64,000 bases of DNA from Mesorhizobium sp. NZP2298 (GTDB taxonomy: Bacteria > Pseudomonadota > Alphaproteobacteria > Rhizobiales > Rhizobiaceae), in contig NZ_CP033365.1 of the NCBI RefSeq assembly GCF_013170825.1, positions 5,158,001-5,222,000 of the forward strand, written 5' to 3'. Shown in pieces: positions 33,755 through 38,392 of this stretch. A program made the position numbers and the translations under genes. Below the pieces are notes generated by a model. The model did no database searches and was not told where the DNA came from. It saw only the letters and a list, made by a program, of their open reading frames with translations. How positions within the stretch are numbered: position 1 is the first letter of the stretch; each line of letters begins with the position of its first letter.

Positions 33755-34027
33755 TCACAGGTGTCCGCTCAAGGCCACCACCATGTCCTTGCTGGTGGCC
33801 ACGGGAACGATCTCGAATTCGACCAGATCAGCCCATTCGATGACCCAGCGCTGCAGAAGCGTGACGTCATCGGCCTCGACGAGCAGGAAGCAGCGGCTCA
33901 TATCCGCCGCGATCCAGCTGTGGTGCACGACAAGTTCCTCCGGCTTCAGACGGCCCCGGTCGCGAAAGCGGCGGTAAATGTCCTTGCGATCGCAGCCGGT
34001 GAAATCCTCGATCACGATGAACTGCAT
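33755..34027 (-). CDS. DUF3303-like small protein
   Basis: 90 residues starting MQFIVIEDFTGCDRKDIYRRFRDRGRLKPEELVVHHSWI, ending in a ferredoxin-like strand with EFEIVPVATSKD. Matches small dimeric alpha/beta barrel proteins of unknown function (DUF3303 as I recall). The longer open frame upstream runs through a repeat element and is not coding. Convergent with the LysR gene, 15 bp apart. Confidence 0.7.
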   Translation of the reverse strand: MQFIVIEDFTGCDRKDIYRRFRDRGRLKPEELVVHHSWIAADMSRCFLLVEADDVTLLQRWVIEWADLVEFEIVPVATSKDMVVALSGHL

Positions 34028-34035
34028 GTTTCGCC

Positions 34036-34146: not shown

Positions 34147-35613
34147 CTATTGCCGCCCCGGCCGGTCGAGCCGTTCCAGAAACCACTGCGTCAGCCGGAT
34201 CCAGACCTCGTCCTTTTCGCCGGAATCCTCCCAGCCATGGTCGAGATTGGGATTATCGTTGACCTCGATGACGAAGACGCCGTCCTTGGTCTCCTTGAGG
34301 TCGACGCCGTAGAGGCCGTCACCGATGCAGCGTGCCGCCTTCACCGCCGTCTCGACGACATGGGTGGGCGTCTCCTTCAGCGTGAAGGTCTTGATGCCGC
34401 CCTGGTCGGGCTTGCCACTGGCCTTGTGGTTGACGATCTGCCAGTGCTTCTTGGCCATCAGATAGTGCACGGCAAACAGCGGCTGGCCGCCGAGCACGCC
34501 GACGCGCCAGTCATATTCGGTGGGAATGAATTTCTGCGCGATGAGGAGATCGGAATCCTCCAGCCATTCCGTGGCGAGCGTCTTCAGTTCCTCGAAGTTG
34601 GCGCATTTCTTGACGCCACGCGAGAAGGATGAATCCGGGATCTTCAGCACCAGCGGGAAGCCCAGCGTCTGCGCCGCGAGTTCAAGATCCGAGGTGCCGG
34701 CGATCATCACCGTCGGCGGCACCGGAACCTTGTTGTAGGACATCAGCTCGTTGAGATAGACCTTGTTGGTGCAACGGATCATCGACAGCGGATCGTCGAT
34801 GACGGGCATGCCTTCCTGCTGGGCGCGGCGGGCGAAGCGATAGGTGTGGTTGGAGATCGACGTGGTCTCGCGGATGAACAGCGCATCGTAGTTCGCCAGC
34901 TTGGCGAGATCCTTCCTGGTGATGGGTTCGATCTCGACACCCATCTTTTCGGCGATCTTGGCCCAGTAGCGCAGCGACGAAATTTCCGATGGCGGCAATT
35001 CCTCATGCGGATCGACCAACGTGGCGAAGGTGTAGCGCGCCGGCGTGCGCCCCTTGGTGTCGCGCCATTCGCGGTTGGTGTAGGTCTCCAGGCACTGGAT
35101 GAAGCTCTTTTCCTCGTCCTCGGTCATGCGCGCCAGCGGATGAAAGCCGATCTTGCGGATCGAGGCCCATTCGGCGCTGTCCTTGATGTGCACCTCGAGC
35201 GCCGGCGCCCGGAACCAGTCGAACAGGAGCTTGGCGAAGCGGTCCCAGACCTTTGACGGGCCGATGCCGAAGAAGATGCAGACCTTGGGGGGAAAGGAGC
35301 CGCCGAGATCCTTGCGGCATTTGTTGAGCGCCAGTTCCAGTTCGGGCAGCGCATGTTCGTAGAGTTTGCGCTCCGACAGGTCGATCATCGTCTCGACGGT
35401 CGGGATAACCTTGTGGCCGCGCGAGCTCGCCAGCAGCGAGGCATAGTAGCCGCGGCTCTGGTAGCCGTAATTGTTCGACAGGTTTATGACCTTCGGCCGC
35501 TGGCCCCGAAACAGCGAGGGATGCGCGAGGTAATCGCGGTTGGTGATGATCTTGTGCGGTGTCGCCACCTGGTCGAGATCGCTCTGCCGGCCGGTAAGAA
35601 TGACCCAGGTCAT
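34147..35613 (-). CDS. RimK-like ATP-grasp amino-acid/peptide ligase with N-terminal RLAN-type domain
   Basis: 488 residues. An N-terminal alpha/beta domain (about 1-230: VINLSNNYGYQSRGYYASLLASSRGHKVIPTVETM) of the kind found in front of RimK-like ligases, then an ATP-grasp domain (about 270-480) with LGFPLVLKIPDSSFSRGVKK (ATP binding), LIAQKFIPTEYDWRVGVLGG and the Mg-binding FVIEVNDNPNLD. Such enzymes join an amino acid or peptide to a carboxylate. Its ATG overlaps the stop of the GNAT-C39 gene (ATGA), so the two are made together. Substrate unknown. A strong terminator follows. Confidence 0.85.
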   Translation of the reverse strand: MTWVILTGRQSDLDQVATPHKIITNRDYLAHPSLFRGQRPKVINLSNNYGYQSRGYYASLLASSRGHKVIPTVETMIDLSERKLYEHALPELELALNKCRKDLGGSFPPKVCIFFGIGPSKVWDRFAKLLFDWFRAPALEVHIKDSAEWASIRKIGFHPLARMTEDEEKSFIQCLETYTNREWRDTKGRTPARYTFATLVDPHEELPPSEISSLRYWAKIAEKMGVEIEPITRKDLAKLANYDALFIRETTSISNHTYRFARRAQQEGMPVIDDPLSMIRCTNKVYLNELMSYNKVPVPPTVMIAGTSDLELAAQTLGFPLVLKIPDSSFSRGVKKCANFEELKTLATEWLEDSDLLIAQKFIPTEYDWRVGVLGGQPLFAVHYLMAKKHWQIVNHKASGKPDQGGIKTFTLKETPTHVVETAVKAARCIGDGLYGVDLKETKDGVFVIEVNDNPNLDHGWEDSGEKDEVWIRLTQWFLERLDRPGRQ

Positions 35614-36716
35614 TGTGTGTCGCGCTTCCCCAGAGTGATGGCGGCACGCAGTCCGTCGCGGCCGAACTGCGCCATGTTCATGAAGATGCCGTAGGGCACT
35701 GGAATGTTGGCGGCATCAAGGATGGTTTCCTGCCTTTCGTCCTCGACCCAGGGATCGTGGATCAGAATATGATCGCCGTCATCGCCGATGGCCAGCACCC
35801 AGTGCGGCACCTTCTTGCCGAACATCAGGAAGCCGCTGATCAGCACCAGCACCAGTTTTCCCGCGGCGATCGCGGTGCGGATATCATCGATGGCGAACGA
35901 ACGGTAATTCACCGGGATGCCGTAAAGTTCCGCGCGGCGGCGAAAGTCGACCTGGGCCAGTTCCATCACCCGGCGCTTCTCCTCGCTGCGCACCGACTGC
36001 AGGAACAGCGCACCGTAGAAGGAAACAAATATCTCCGCCGCGAGCCCGCTCTCGTACCCCGACACAGCCAGGCCGAACGGCTCGCAGCCGCCCGGTCCGG
36101 ACATCATGAAGACGGTGGTCGCCTCACGCCAAAGGCGGATTTCCATCACCGGATCGGGCACGAAGTCGCGGTCGAAATTGGCCATCGCCATCATCAGGCA
36201 GCATGGGCCGCAGGTGAACTCGCAGGTCTGCTGATAGAATGGCACCCTGGTGGCGACAGGAAGGTCGCCGCGCAATGTCTTTTCATAACGAAGCGCCGTC
36301 GCGCCGTCCTCGTAGTAGCCGGGCTCGCGGCCAATCTTGCGGTAGCCGGCCTGCTCATAGATGCGGATGGCCCGGTCGTTGTCCTCGCGCACTTCGAGAC
36401 GCAGCATCATACGGTCGTGCTCGAAGGCTGCCTCCTCCGCCGCCGACAGCAGCCGGCGCCCGATGCCGAGCGCGCCGAAAAACGGTCCGACGGCTATGGA
36501 GTACAGCCGTGCCACCCCACTGCCCTTGCGAAACAGCACGATCGCATAGCCGGCGAGGCGGCCATCGACTTCGGCGACCAACGTCTCGGCGGTCTCGCGC
36601 TCGATGAACAGGCGAAAAGAGCGGCGGGAAATGCGATCGCTCGAAAAAACGGCTTTCTCGATGGCGGCGAGATCATCGACGTCAGAGGCGCGGGCCGTGC
36701 GGATCTCGGCAGGCAT
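35610..36716 (-). CDS. GNAT acetyltransferase fused to a C39-like cysteine peptidase
   Basis: 368 residues. Residues 1-148: RimI-like N-acetyltransferase (IRTARASDVDDLAAIEKAVF, LYSIAVGPFFGALGIGRRLL, RLEVREDNDRAIRIYEQAGY). Residues about 155-360: C39-like papain-fold peptidase with oxyanion Gln163, nucleophile Cys169 (TCGPCC), His305 (PHWVLAIG) and Asp321 (HDPW); the triad looks complete. No transmembrane span, unlike C39 peptidases fused to bacteriocin exporters. Start MPAEI was chosen from the GNAT alignment; ATG at 36800, with AAGGAG further upstream, would add 28 residues. Coupled to the ATP-grasp ligase. Confidence 0.85.
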   Translation of the reverse strand: MPAEIRTARASDVDDLAAIEKAVFSSDRISRRSFRLFIERETAETLVAEVDGRLAGYAIVLFRKGSGVARLYSIAVGPFFGALGIGRRLLSAAEEAAFEHDRMMLRLEVREDNDRAIRIYEQAGYRKIGREPGYYEDGATALRYEKTLRGDLPVATRVPFYQQTCEFTCGPCCLMMAMANFDRDFVPDPVMEIRLWREATTVFMMSGPGGCEPFGLAVSGYESGLAAEIFVSFYGALFLQSVRSEEKRRVMELAQVDFRRRAELYGIPVNYRSFAIDDIRTAIAAGKLVLVLISGFLMFGKKVPHWVLAIGDDGDHILIHDPWVEDERQETILDAANIPVPYGIFMNMAQFGRDGLRAAITLGKRDTQ

Positions 36717-36924
36717 GCGACTTGAGAAAACCTCGATTGCGTTGCGGGAACGGCCCCGGTCAAAAGCGTCGCAAACACCGGCCGAAGCGCCGATATTCAT
36801 CAAGCGCTATCGCTCCTTGATTAGGGCCGAATTGTGACAGGTTCCGTGGCGGCAAGGAAGCCCGCGGGCTTTGAACAGGATCGCTGTTTCGACAGGTCAC
36901 CGGCGGCGGATGATTGCGGTCAAC

Positions 36925-37716
36925 TCAGCTTGCCAAGCCTGCCAGAAGCTGGCCGTAGGCACTCTTGGCCACGACCGCCAATTGCTCGCGCGGCAGCGAG
37001 CCGACGACGGCGCAGCCATAGCCCTTGTCCAGCCAGTAGACGGCCTGCGGGCCATCCTGCGCCGAAGCGTAGGTGCCCTTGGCATTCTCCGTCGATTCAG
37101 CGGTGACGAAGAGGGATATGCGCTCGCCCTTGTCGTCCTCATAGAGCAGCATCGCGGCCTTGGCTTCGCCGGCCGGCAGCAACCGGCCGCCGATCAGTTG
37201 AAAGCCATTCGCGCTCAAGTCCGGCGCCACCAGCTTCAGTCCGACCCGGTTGGACAGCCAGGTCTGCAAATGATCCTTGTCGCTGGCCAGCACCTCCACC
37301 GCATGCCGCTTCTCGGCAGCATAAATGACATGGGCGGCGATCGCCTGTTCGGCGAGCCGATCCTCGGCAGGATCCTCCTGTCCGATGCCGTCAATGCCGG
37401 CAAAATAGCCGCCAAATCCGCCCGTGGCCAGAAGCACGGCCGCCGCCGCGGCCAGCCACCAGCGCGAGCGGGGCACCGCAGTCCTAACAGGCGCTTCGCC
37501 GAGCACCATCTTGCGCAAGCGCGCGGGAACAGGCTCGTCCAGCACACCGGCAAAGGCGGAGCGCAATGCCTCCCGGTCGGCTGTGAAGCGGGCGCTTCTG
37601 GCCTTCATCTCGGGATTGGCATCGAGCCAGGCATCGTAAGCGGTGCGTTCGTCAGCCGGCAACTCGCCATCGAGCGCCATATGGATATCACGTTCGGAAA
37701 AATCGCGGCGGATCAT
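36925..37716 (-). CDS. Anti-sigma factor, membrane-anchored
   Basis: 263 residues. The N-terminal cytoplasmic part (SERDIHMALDGELPADERTAYDAWLDANP) matches anti-sigma domains of the RskA/ChrR-like zinc-free type. One transmembrane helix (about 87-107) is followed by a periplasmic domain. Its ATG overlaps the stop of the ECF sigma gene, the usual coupling for such pairs. It should hold the sigma factor inactive until an envelope signal. Confidence 0.82.
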   Translation of the reverse strand: MIRRDFSERDIHMALDGELPADERTAYDAWLDANPEMKARSARFTADREALRSAFAGVLDEPVPARLRKMVLGEAPVRTAVPRSRWWLAAAAAVLLATGGFGGYFAGIDGIGQEDPAEDRLAEQAIAAHVIYAAEKRHAVEVLASDKDHLQTWLSNRVGLKLVAPDLSANGFQLIGGRLLPAGEAKAAMLLYEDDKGERISLFVTAESTENAKGTYASAQDGPQAVYWLDKGYGCAVVGSLPREQLAVVAKSAYGQLLAGLAS

Positions 37717-38231
37717 TTCTCGACGATCCTTATCGCGCGGCGGCGTGCCGTGTCATCCAGCAACCCGCGCAATTCCTCACGCCCGCGTGCAATGCGCGAC
37801 ATCAGCGTGCCGGCGGGCACGCCCAGAATATTGGCGGCCTCGGCATAGGAAAAGCCTTCGATGGCAACCATGACAAGGGCCGCGCGGCGATCGGGGCTGA
37901 TCGCCTGCAGCGCGTCGATGATCTCGCGCGAGGCGATGCCCTCCAACTGTTCGGCCGGCTGGGCAACCGCCTCGCCCGCTTCCAGTGGCAGCATCGCCGC
38001 TTCGCCGCGACGGTTCACCTTGCGCATCTGGTCGATGAACAAATGATGCATGATCGTAAACAGCCACCTCCTGGGGCTTTCTCCCGTCTGCCAATTGTCG
38101 AGCCGCATGAGTGCGCGCTCGAGGCAGTCCTGAACGAGATCGTCGGCAGAATCGCGGTCGCGCAAAAGCGAGCGTGCGTAGCGGCGCAGGCGCGGTATTT
38201 CGCCAAGGATTGCTGCCTTCTTTTCGTCCAT
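37713..38231 (-). CDS. ECF-family RNA polymerase sigma factor
   Basis: 172 residues. Region 2: RLRRYARSLLRDRDSADDLVQDCLERAL, then PRRWLFTIMHHLFIDQMRK. Region 4: LPLE-type linker, ISPDRRAALVMVAIEGFSYAEAANILGVPAGTLMSRIARGREEL. ATG at 38231 chosen, as the frame further up lacks sigma similarity. Paired with the membrane anti-sigma factor downstream. I could not confidently place an autoregulated -35/-10 pair. Confidence 0.9.
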   Translation of the reverse strand: MDEKKAAILGEIPRLRRYARSLLRDRDSADDLVQDCLERALMRLDNWQTGESPRRWLFTIMHHLFIDQMRKVNRRGEAAMLPLEAGEAVAQPAEQLEGIASREIIDALQAISPDRRAALVMVAIEGFSYAEAANILGVPAGTLMSRIARGREELRGLLDDTARRRAIRIVEK

Positions 38232-38392
38232 GACCGCTGGTTCTGAGGTCGCCCTTGTTAATCCCGATTGAACGCGCCTTCCCGGCGTGGCGCAAGCGGC
38301 CAGCGCGAAGCGGTCCGCCGCCCTGGTCACCCAAGCAATGAGACAACGCTGGCGAGTGCCGGTTTATTCCCGGCTGATTGAGCCCCCTAACG

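Follow-up and report, generated by a model that had tools for sequence, protein, structure and literature searches.

The window analysed here is a 64,000-nucleotide stretch of Mesorhizobium sp. NZP2298 (contig NZ_CP033365.1, positions 5,158,001 to 5,222,000) that carries two overlapping genes. One encodes a GNAT acetyltransferase domain fused to a papain-like, C39-like peptidase domain (GNAT-C39), and the other an ATP-grasp ligase with an N-terminal RLAN domain. Judged by gene content across related loci, the core of this system is the GNAT and the ligase, and the C39-like peptidase is an optional add-on. We give roughly even credence to a reading in which the pair is a self-contained module that would acetylate and ligate to yield an N-acetyl-capped peptide, with the C39-like domain as an optional trimming arm. 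More tentatively, the RLAN ligase and the RimI-like GNAT might represent an undescribed, widespread bacterial pathway that builds an N-acetyl-capped peptide, or that caps and extends a peptide tag, with a papain-like ‘eraser’ added within the acetyltransferase in some lineages.

An RLAN ligase overlaps a GNAT-C39 gene

Both open reading frames lie on the minus strand, GNAT-C39 being 5' of the ligase, where a first-pass annotation of the window had placed them. The ATGA overlap that it described falls at 35610-35613. The features of the pair are:

34147-35613, minus strand: RLAN plus RimK-like ATP-grasp ligase gene, 488 amino acids (open reading frame and Pfam)
34174-35046, minus strand: ArgX/LysX/RimK-type ligase unit, about residues 190-480 (family matches, AlphaFold2 model, Foldseek)
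35098-35538, minus strand: RLAN domain (PF14401), residues 26-172 (Pfam)
35610-36716, minus strand: GNAT plus DUF3335 (C39-like) fusion gene, ATG start, 368 amino acids (Pfam; start codon kept)
35631-36245, minus strand: C39-like DUF3335 domain with Q163, C169, H305 and D321 (Pfam and alignment)
36273-36710, minus strand: RimI-like GNAT domain with E108 (Pfam and family scores)

The longest GNAT-C39 frame extends to a TTG at 36803, and the ATG at 36716 is kept in 17/17 aligned sequences (the window and 16 near relatives). The Pfam scan used the TTG-start version; residue numbers follow the ATG-start protein. For comparison we examined 144 loci, 136 of which hold RLAN. Loci L066-L125 were hand-picked (all 15 RLAN-only genomes of a phylum sample, three genomes of the window’s genus, and a sample of others and of solo DUF3335 genes), and L126-L205 are the 80 top-ranked loci among 583 found by similarity.

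The ATP-grasp assignment of the first-pass annotation stands, with a RimK match (PF08443) of 39.7 bits that exceeds its curated cut-off. The N-terminal domain that it called uncharacterised is in fact the Pfam family RLAN, matched at 128.3 bits against a curated cut-off of 25. That RLAN precedes a RimK-like ATP-grasp unit in one protein is supported by Pfam, an AlphaFold2 model and Foldseek. Ligase-family profile matches cover residues 223-459. The model (52 sequences; mean predicted local distance difference test score 89.8, predicted template modelling score 0.61) shows a weak linker at residues 183-189, between RLAN and the ligase half. Its top Foldseek match is the ArgX-LysW complex 3vpb (E 2.1e-17, target template modelling score 0.77), and the best 50 of the 1,356 rows with E up to 10 belong to ArgX, LysX, RimK and D-Ala-D-Ala ligases; the alignments span about 300 columns, a length from which we judge that they fit the ligase half. 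RLAN alone, compared by sequence with solved structures, gave nothing significant (best E 0.59). Residues K284, K324, Q360, D368, W369 and R370 are invariant in 136/136 relatives, and D438, K440, E450, N452 and N454 are kept in 135/136, with one gap. Ligase relatives at 94% identity or above all come from Mesorhizobium (11/11).

The fusion of a C39-like peptidase to a GNAT was likewise correctly recognised: DUF3335 (PF11814) is matched at 253.0 bits and GNAT (PF00583) at 61.8 bits, both above curated cut-offs. The peptidase family is DUF3335 and not the exporter-type C39 family PF03412, which scores 17.2 bits, below its cut-off of 22. DUF3335 itself found nothing significant among solved structures by sequence (best E 0.073). 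The residues first annotated as catalytic, Gln163, Cys169, His305 and Asp321, are in place in the ATG-numbered protein and correspond on alignment to the Gln-Cys-His-Asp set of a cysteine peptidase. Across 83 RLAN-linked C39 domains Q163, C169 and H305 are invariant, and position 321 is D in 79 and E in 4. In RLAN loci, therefore, the C39 domain is either present with these residues or absent.

In the GNAT domain, E108 and Y135 are kept in 134/134 RLAN-locus relatives, and position 120 is Y in 126, F in 7 and V in 1; five DUF3335 rows that have no GNAT domain were left out of the GNAT model. We take E108 and Y120 to be the counterparts of the RimI catalytic pair. The domain scores 82.2 against the RimI family, short of the cut-off of 86.4, and was not assigned to RimI proper. 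It ranks second among the 28 RimI matches of its genome, where a different locus meets the cut-off at 86.4.

Presence of the GNAT and of the C39-like domain across loci

A GNAT lies within 5 kilobases (kb) of RLAN in 134/136 loci; by our own estimate, from 28 GNAT-like genes in 7.34 megabases, chance would place one there in about 4% of loci. It is upstream on the same strand in 103, upstream on the opposite strand in 25 and downstream on the same strand in 6. The two exceptions are L084, whose genome places its GNAT-C39 on a different contig (L085), and L203, from a Sulfuricurvum metagenome bin in which DUF3335 is also missing. The GNAT is C39-fused and nearest to RLAN in 81 of the 134 loci, lone in 51, and mixed in two (L090 and L101), where it is lone or ligase-fused and a GNAT-C39 gene is also close by. 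In L101 a single polypeptide runs GNAT-RLAN-ATP-grasp, with the GNAT in front, and a separate, convergent GNAT-C39 gene adjoins it.

No other neighbour is as constant. After near-copies were collapsed (135 to 108 rows, the short L205 having been left out), a GNAT cluster was found within four genes of RLAN in 106/108 loci, in 49 groups, and the next clusters reach 9 loci. Codon-scored gene calls had overlooked a DUF3303 gene in the window, and small neighbours were therefore sought again without a gene caller. Among 5,449 open reading frames of 25-160 amino acids within 4 kb (overlaps with GNAT, C39 and RLAN excluded), the widest cluster occupies 8/108 loci. This agrees with the first-pass statement that no obvious precursor peptide stands beside the pair, and with no widely recurring neighbour other than the GNAT, a conserved precursor or carrier protein encoded alongside has little scope. 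The lack of a nearby transporter, which had also been remarked upon, agrees with the comparison: no ABC (ATP-binding cassette) domain is fused to the protein, and no exporter recurs near RLAN in the 108 loci; an ABC-ATPase-like cluster occurs in 7/108, at varying positions.

The C39 domain behaves differently from the GNAT. In 51/136 RLAN loci, GNAT and ligase have no C39 alongside. A genome-wide search for DUF3335 in nine C39-less genomes (one a metagenome bin of unstated completeness) was positive in 0/9, and the control search found it in 4/4 C39-bearing genomes. In three lone-GNAT loci (L087, L096 and L123), DUF3335 lies elsewhere in the same genome. Because the loci were partly hand-picked and partly ranked by similarity, the split of 81 to 51 is not a population frequency. 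A less biased figure comes from the phylum sample of 398 genomes, in which 57 of 72 RLAN genomes have DUF3335. The remaining 15 all have a lone GNAT (L066-L080; about 1.5 kb away in L078).

In that sample DUF3335 occurs in 58 genomes and shares 57 with RLAN (Fisher p 1e-53); at the genus level (212 genera), RLAN is found in 40, DUF3335 in 31 and both in 30 (p 9e-27). The co-occurrence is not due to chance. The two are also physically linked in most genomes, lying within 5 kb in 55 of the 57 that have both; they are far apart in genome G066 and on different contigs in G248. Both outcomes that the first-pass annotation had named as refuting it, catalytic residues that vary among homologues and genes unlinked in most genomes, were checked, and neither was observed. 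Within the window’s genus, RLAN is present in 35/37 genomes (the window’s own counted) with a DUF3335 match beside it in 35/35. G013 lacks both, and G007 (86% complete) has DUF3335 only, with no RLAN nearby.

Mapped on a ligase tree of the 108 rows, the C39 state requires 17 changes, of which starred branches force 12; shuffled states change 33.9 times on average, and 0/500 shuffles were as low as 17. Some C39-less cases are nested. Chelativorans and Nitratireductor aquimarinus fall inside a 17-row clade in which 13 rows have C39, and the C39-less L079 has a gene order in common with L098 and L104, which share its genus code and have C39. When 12 lone GNATs were compared, the best match was a fused GNAT in six, and in the other six a fused GNAT came directly after lone relatives. 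For the nested cases loss is the simpler reading, its direction being unproven by parsimony.

DUF3335 genes outside RLAN loci

Solo DUF3335 genes offer a second view of the peptidase. The window’s own genome encodes another DUF3335 protein (L031:7289-8377, that is C1:991288-992376) with no recognisable GNAT; a short aminotransferase class III frame is directly upstream, and RidA and an amidohydrolase are downstream. The solo DUF3335 genes of L032 and L116 precede the same RidA and amidohydrolase clusters. L115 (5133-15397) contains two DUF3335 genes, both diverged: the first follows genes for an oligopeptide ABC transporter and an AstE/AspA-like deacylase, and the second adjoins a solute-binding protein gene. 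These neighbours suggest that, in some loci, solo DUF3335 may hydrolyse small compounds. A different setting is found in 3/3 DUF3335-positive genomes of one alphaproteobacterial genus code, between sucB (E2) and lpd (dihydrolipoamide-dehydrogenase-type) of the 2-oxoglutarate dehydrogenase operon:

L114:9620-10321, solo DUF3335 in the sucB-lpd setting
L221:6314-7009, solo DUF3335 in the sucB-lpd setting
L222:6342-7088, solo DUF3335 in the sucB-lpd setting

Finally, L225:5728-7725 is a single 665-amino-acid frame with two DUF3335 matches.

A candidate acetylation and ligation pathway

From the chemistry of the enzyme families we infer the following scheme. The RimI-like GNAT would acetylate an alpha-amino group, and the ArgX/LysX/RimK-type ligase would activate a carboxylate with ATP and join an amino acid to the carboxyl end of the same molecule. 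The product would most likely be a small N-acetyl-capped peptide metabolite, comparable to N-acetylglutaminylglutamine or N-acetylaspartylglutamate. Where present, the C39-like domain may act as a thiol hydrolase, trimming the product or turning it over much as the protease RimB does for RimK, and in many lineages the pathway would run without it. We lean towards a small peptide rather than a protein end for two reasons: the pair is not accompanied by any recurrent target or carrier gene, and some solo DUF3335 genes adjoin peptide uptake and deacylation genes. DUF2817, which we take to be an M14-like hydrolase, lies near six GNAT-C39 loci, and we count this in favour of the same reading. If the scheme is right, one polypeptide, GNAT-C39, would help both to build and to unmake the product. 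A GNAT and ligase core with an optional peptidase also guides which knock-outs to compare, and C39-less Chelativorans, compared with Mesorhizobium, would serve as a natural control.

Several points weigh against this scheme. The first-pass annotation knew of no demonstrated substrate for such ligases, and we found neither substrate nor product in the literature searched. RimI, RimK and ArgX/LysX, the closest characterised relatives of the two enzymes, act on protein termini or on a carrier protein, and this points towards a protein as the target. The ligase tree is of a quick kind and has long rows (L101 and L110), and parsimony is unable to tell loss of C39 from gain. The catabolic setting of solo DUF3335 is represented by a small number of loci and a diverged branch. 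In L033 neither RidA nor an amidohydrolase stands beside the gene, whose neighbour is ApbE, and the aminotransferase frame of L031 is short and was not seen in L032. The sucB-lpd setting fits no peptide role.

The strongest alternative, possible although we think it somewhat improbable, is protein modification. By analogy with RimI/RimK/RimB or LysW-ArgX, the GNAT would acetylate, and the ligase extend, a single abundant host protein at a terminus or a side chain, and the C39 domain would remove the tag. The rank of the GNAT among RimI matches speaks for this, as does the resemblance of the ligase model to ArgX-LysW, LysX and RimK, all protein-directed, among its best 50 Foldseek rows. So does DUF155 (the RMND1 family), which is found near five loci. 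RMND1 has a role in mitochondrial translation. It is described, in an excerpted source, as a mitochondrial disease gene. DUF155 is, however, near just 5/144 loci, and the 108 loci show no recurrent target or carrier gene near RLAN, either within four genes or among small reading frames within 4 kb.

Unlikely in our judgement is a strict sequence of the three activities listed in the first-pass annotation, in which C39 would cleave first, ligation and acetylation of the new ends would follow, and all three steps would be required. The GNAT-C39 fusion and the catalytic residues kept in 83/83 domains are consistent with it, but cleavage as an integral step is not supported, given the 51 loci without C39, the nine searched genomes without DUF3335 and the 15 RLAN-only genomes that have a lone GNAT. 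Maturation of a small precursor, as for a ribosomally synthesized and post-translationally modified peptide or a graspetide, is brought to mind by an ATP-grasp ligase with a C39-like peptidase and is highly improbable, given that only the GNAT is widely conserved nearby, that clusters of small reading frames (25-160 amino acids, within 4 kb) reach at most 8/108 loci, and that PF03412 is below its cut-off.

Comparison with known systems

Iyer et al. reportedly predicted in 2009 a neighbourhood of RLAN (PF14401) and GNAT-papain (PF11814), with the GNAT fused to the papain-like peptidase. The window’s pair is alike in domains and linkage and has all three features (RLAN, a RimK-like ATP-grasp and an adjacent GNAT-papain); it belongs to this reported kind. 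The difference from the neighbourhood as reported is that here C39 is dispensable and the GNAT is the constant partner. C39 optionality and GNAT constancy are new here; we found neither in the literature searched, a search that the 2009 text lay outside. In the excerpted part of a 2023 review, DUF3335 is often GNAT-fused, with Iyer 2009 cited for this (JBC; PMC10318531).

According to excerpts of the papers concerned, the closest tested parallel to a ligase and its trimming protease is RimB-RimK (PMC11957791; PMC12239564), in which RimB trims RimK-added residues and stimulates RimK (PMC11957791). As excerpted, this RpsF polyglutamylation system has in common with the window’s pair a RimK fold and a peptidase paired with the ligase. 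The window’s ligase differs by its extra RLAN, its peptidase is papain-like rather than retropepsin, and it has a constant GNAT partner. RimK proper was rejected on scores of 84.7 against 143.4 (TIGR00768) and 24.3 against 331 (PRK10446). ArgX/LysX with the LysW carrier is the closest fold (3vpb and 5k2m, among the best 50 of 1,356 Foldseek rows), yet the LysX score is 89.0 against 275.6 and no carrier gene recurs near window-type pairs. N-acetylglutaminylglutamine synthetase has the logic of GNAT plus ATP-grasp in common, and L101 is a single polypeptide too; assignment to that family was rejected at 23.0 against 569 bits (TIGR03103). In actin maturation, as described in excerpted sources, NAA80 and ACTMAP pair an N-terminal acetyltransferase with a dedicated protease on one substrate. 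That system is eukaryotic and has no ligase.

Other neighbours and carriage

Two further features flank the pair in the window:

33755-34030, same strand, downstream of the ligase: DUF3303 small gene (Pfam)
36925-38330, same strand, upstream of the pair: extracytoplasmic function (ECF)-type sigma factor and anti-sigma-like gene, recurrent in the window’s family

In L117, L118, L119 and L125, from the window’s genus, the ligase is followed by a small same-strand gene that is probably the DUF3303 gene. The ECF sigma cluster occurs upstream in 20 loci in or near the window’s family and immediately 3' of the ligase in three loci of Azospirillum (L188, L191 and L192); present in only 9/108 collapsed loci, it was dismissed as a regular partner. 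DUF155 and DUF2817, near GNAT-C39 or RLAN in five and six of the 144 loci, are also too rare for that role. Their Pfam names come from L121:6326-8311, and the other loci are L090, L093, L095, L097, L113, L122 and L200.

An anti-phage defence system was rejected, as 0 PADLOC families match either protein. Phage carriage was discarded, 0/21 matching phage records covering 80% of the ligase, as was plasmid carriage, with 11/44 plasmid records covering 80%, seven of these being Azospirillum replicons. L186 and L202, from metagenome bins titled Acidobacteria or Candidatus Sulfopaludibacter, have a ligase at 47% identity and a lone GNAT; the loci are much like Hyphomonadaceae loci, and misbinning is possible.

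An element upstream of GNAT-C39

Alignment of Mesorhizobium relatives revealed a short conserved element some 110 bases before the start of GNAT-C39:

36826-36838, minus strand: 13-base core GTCACAATTCGGC

The fuller element, TGTCACAATTCGGCCC...GCGATAGCGC, occupies 36800-36845. It is probably regulatory. Control by ChvI/BvrR was considered and dropped, since published ChvI sites differ (TTGC-N3-GCAA and N-GCC-N8-GCC in excerpts of PMC9731502) and excerpts of PMC9491525 spelled out no motif. The element is kept in most aligned Mesorhizobium relatives and is weaker in L137, L148 and L150, and the core has one exact copy in the genome.

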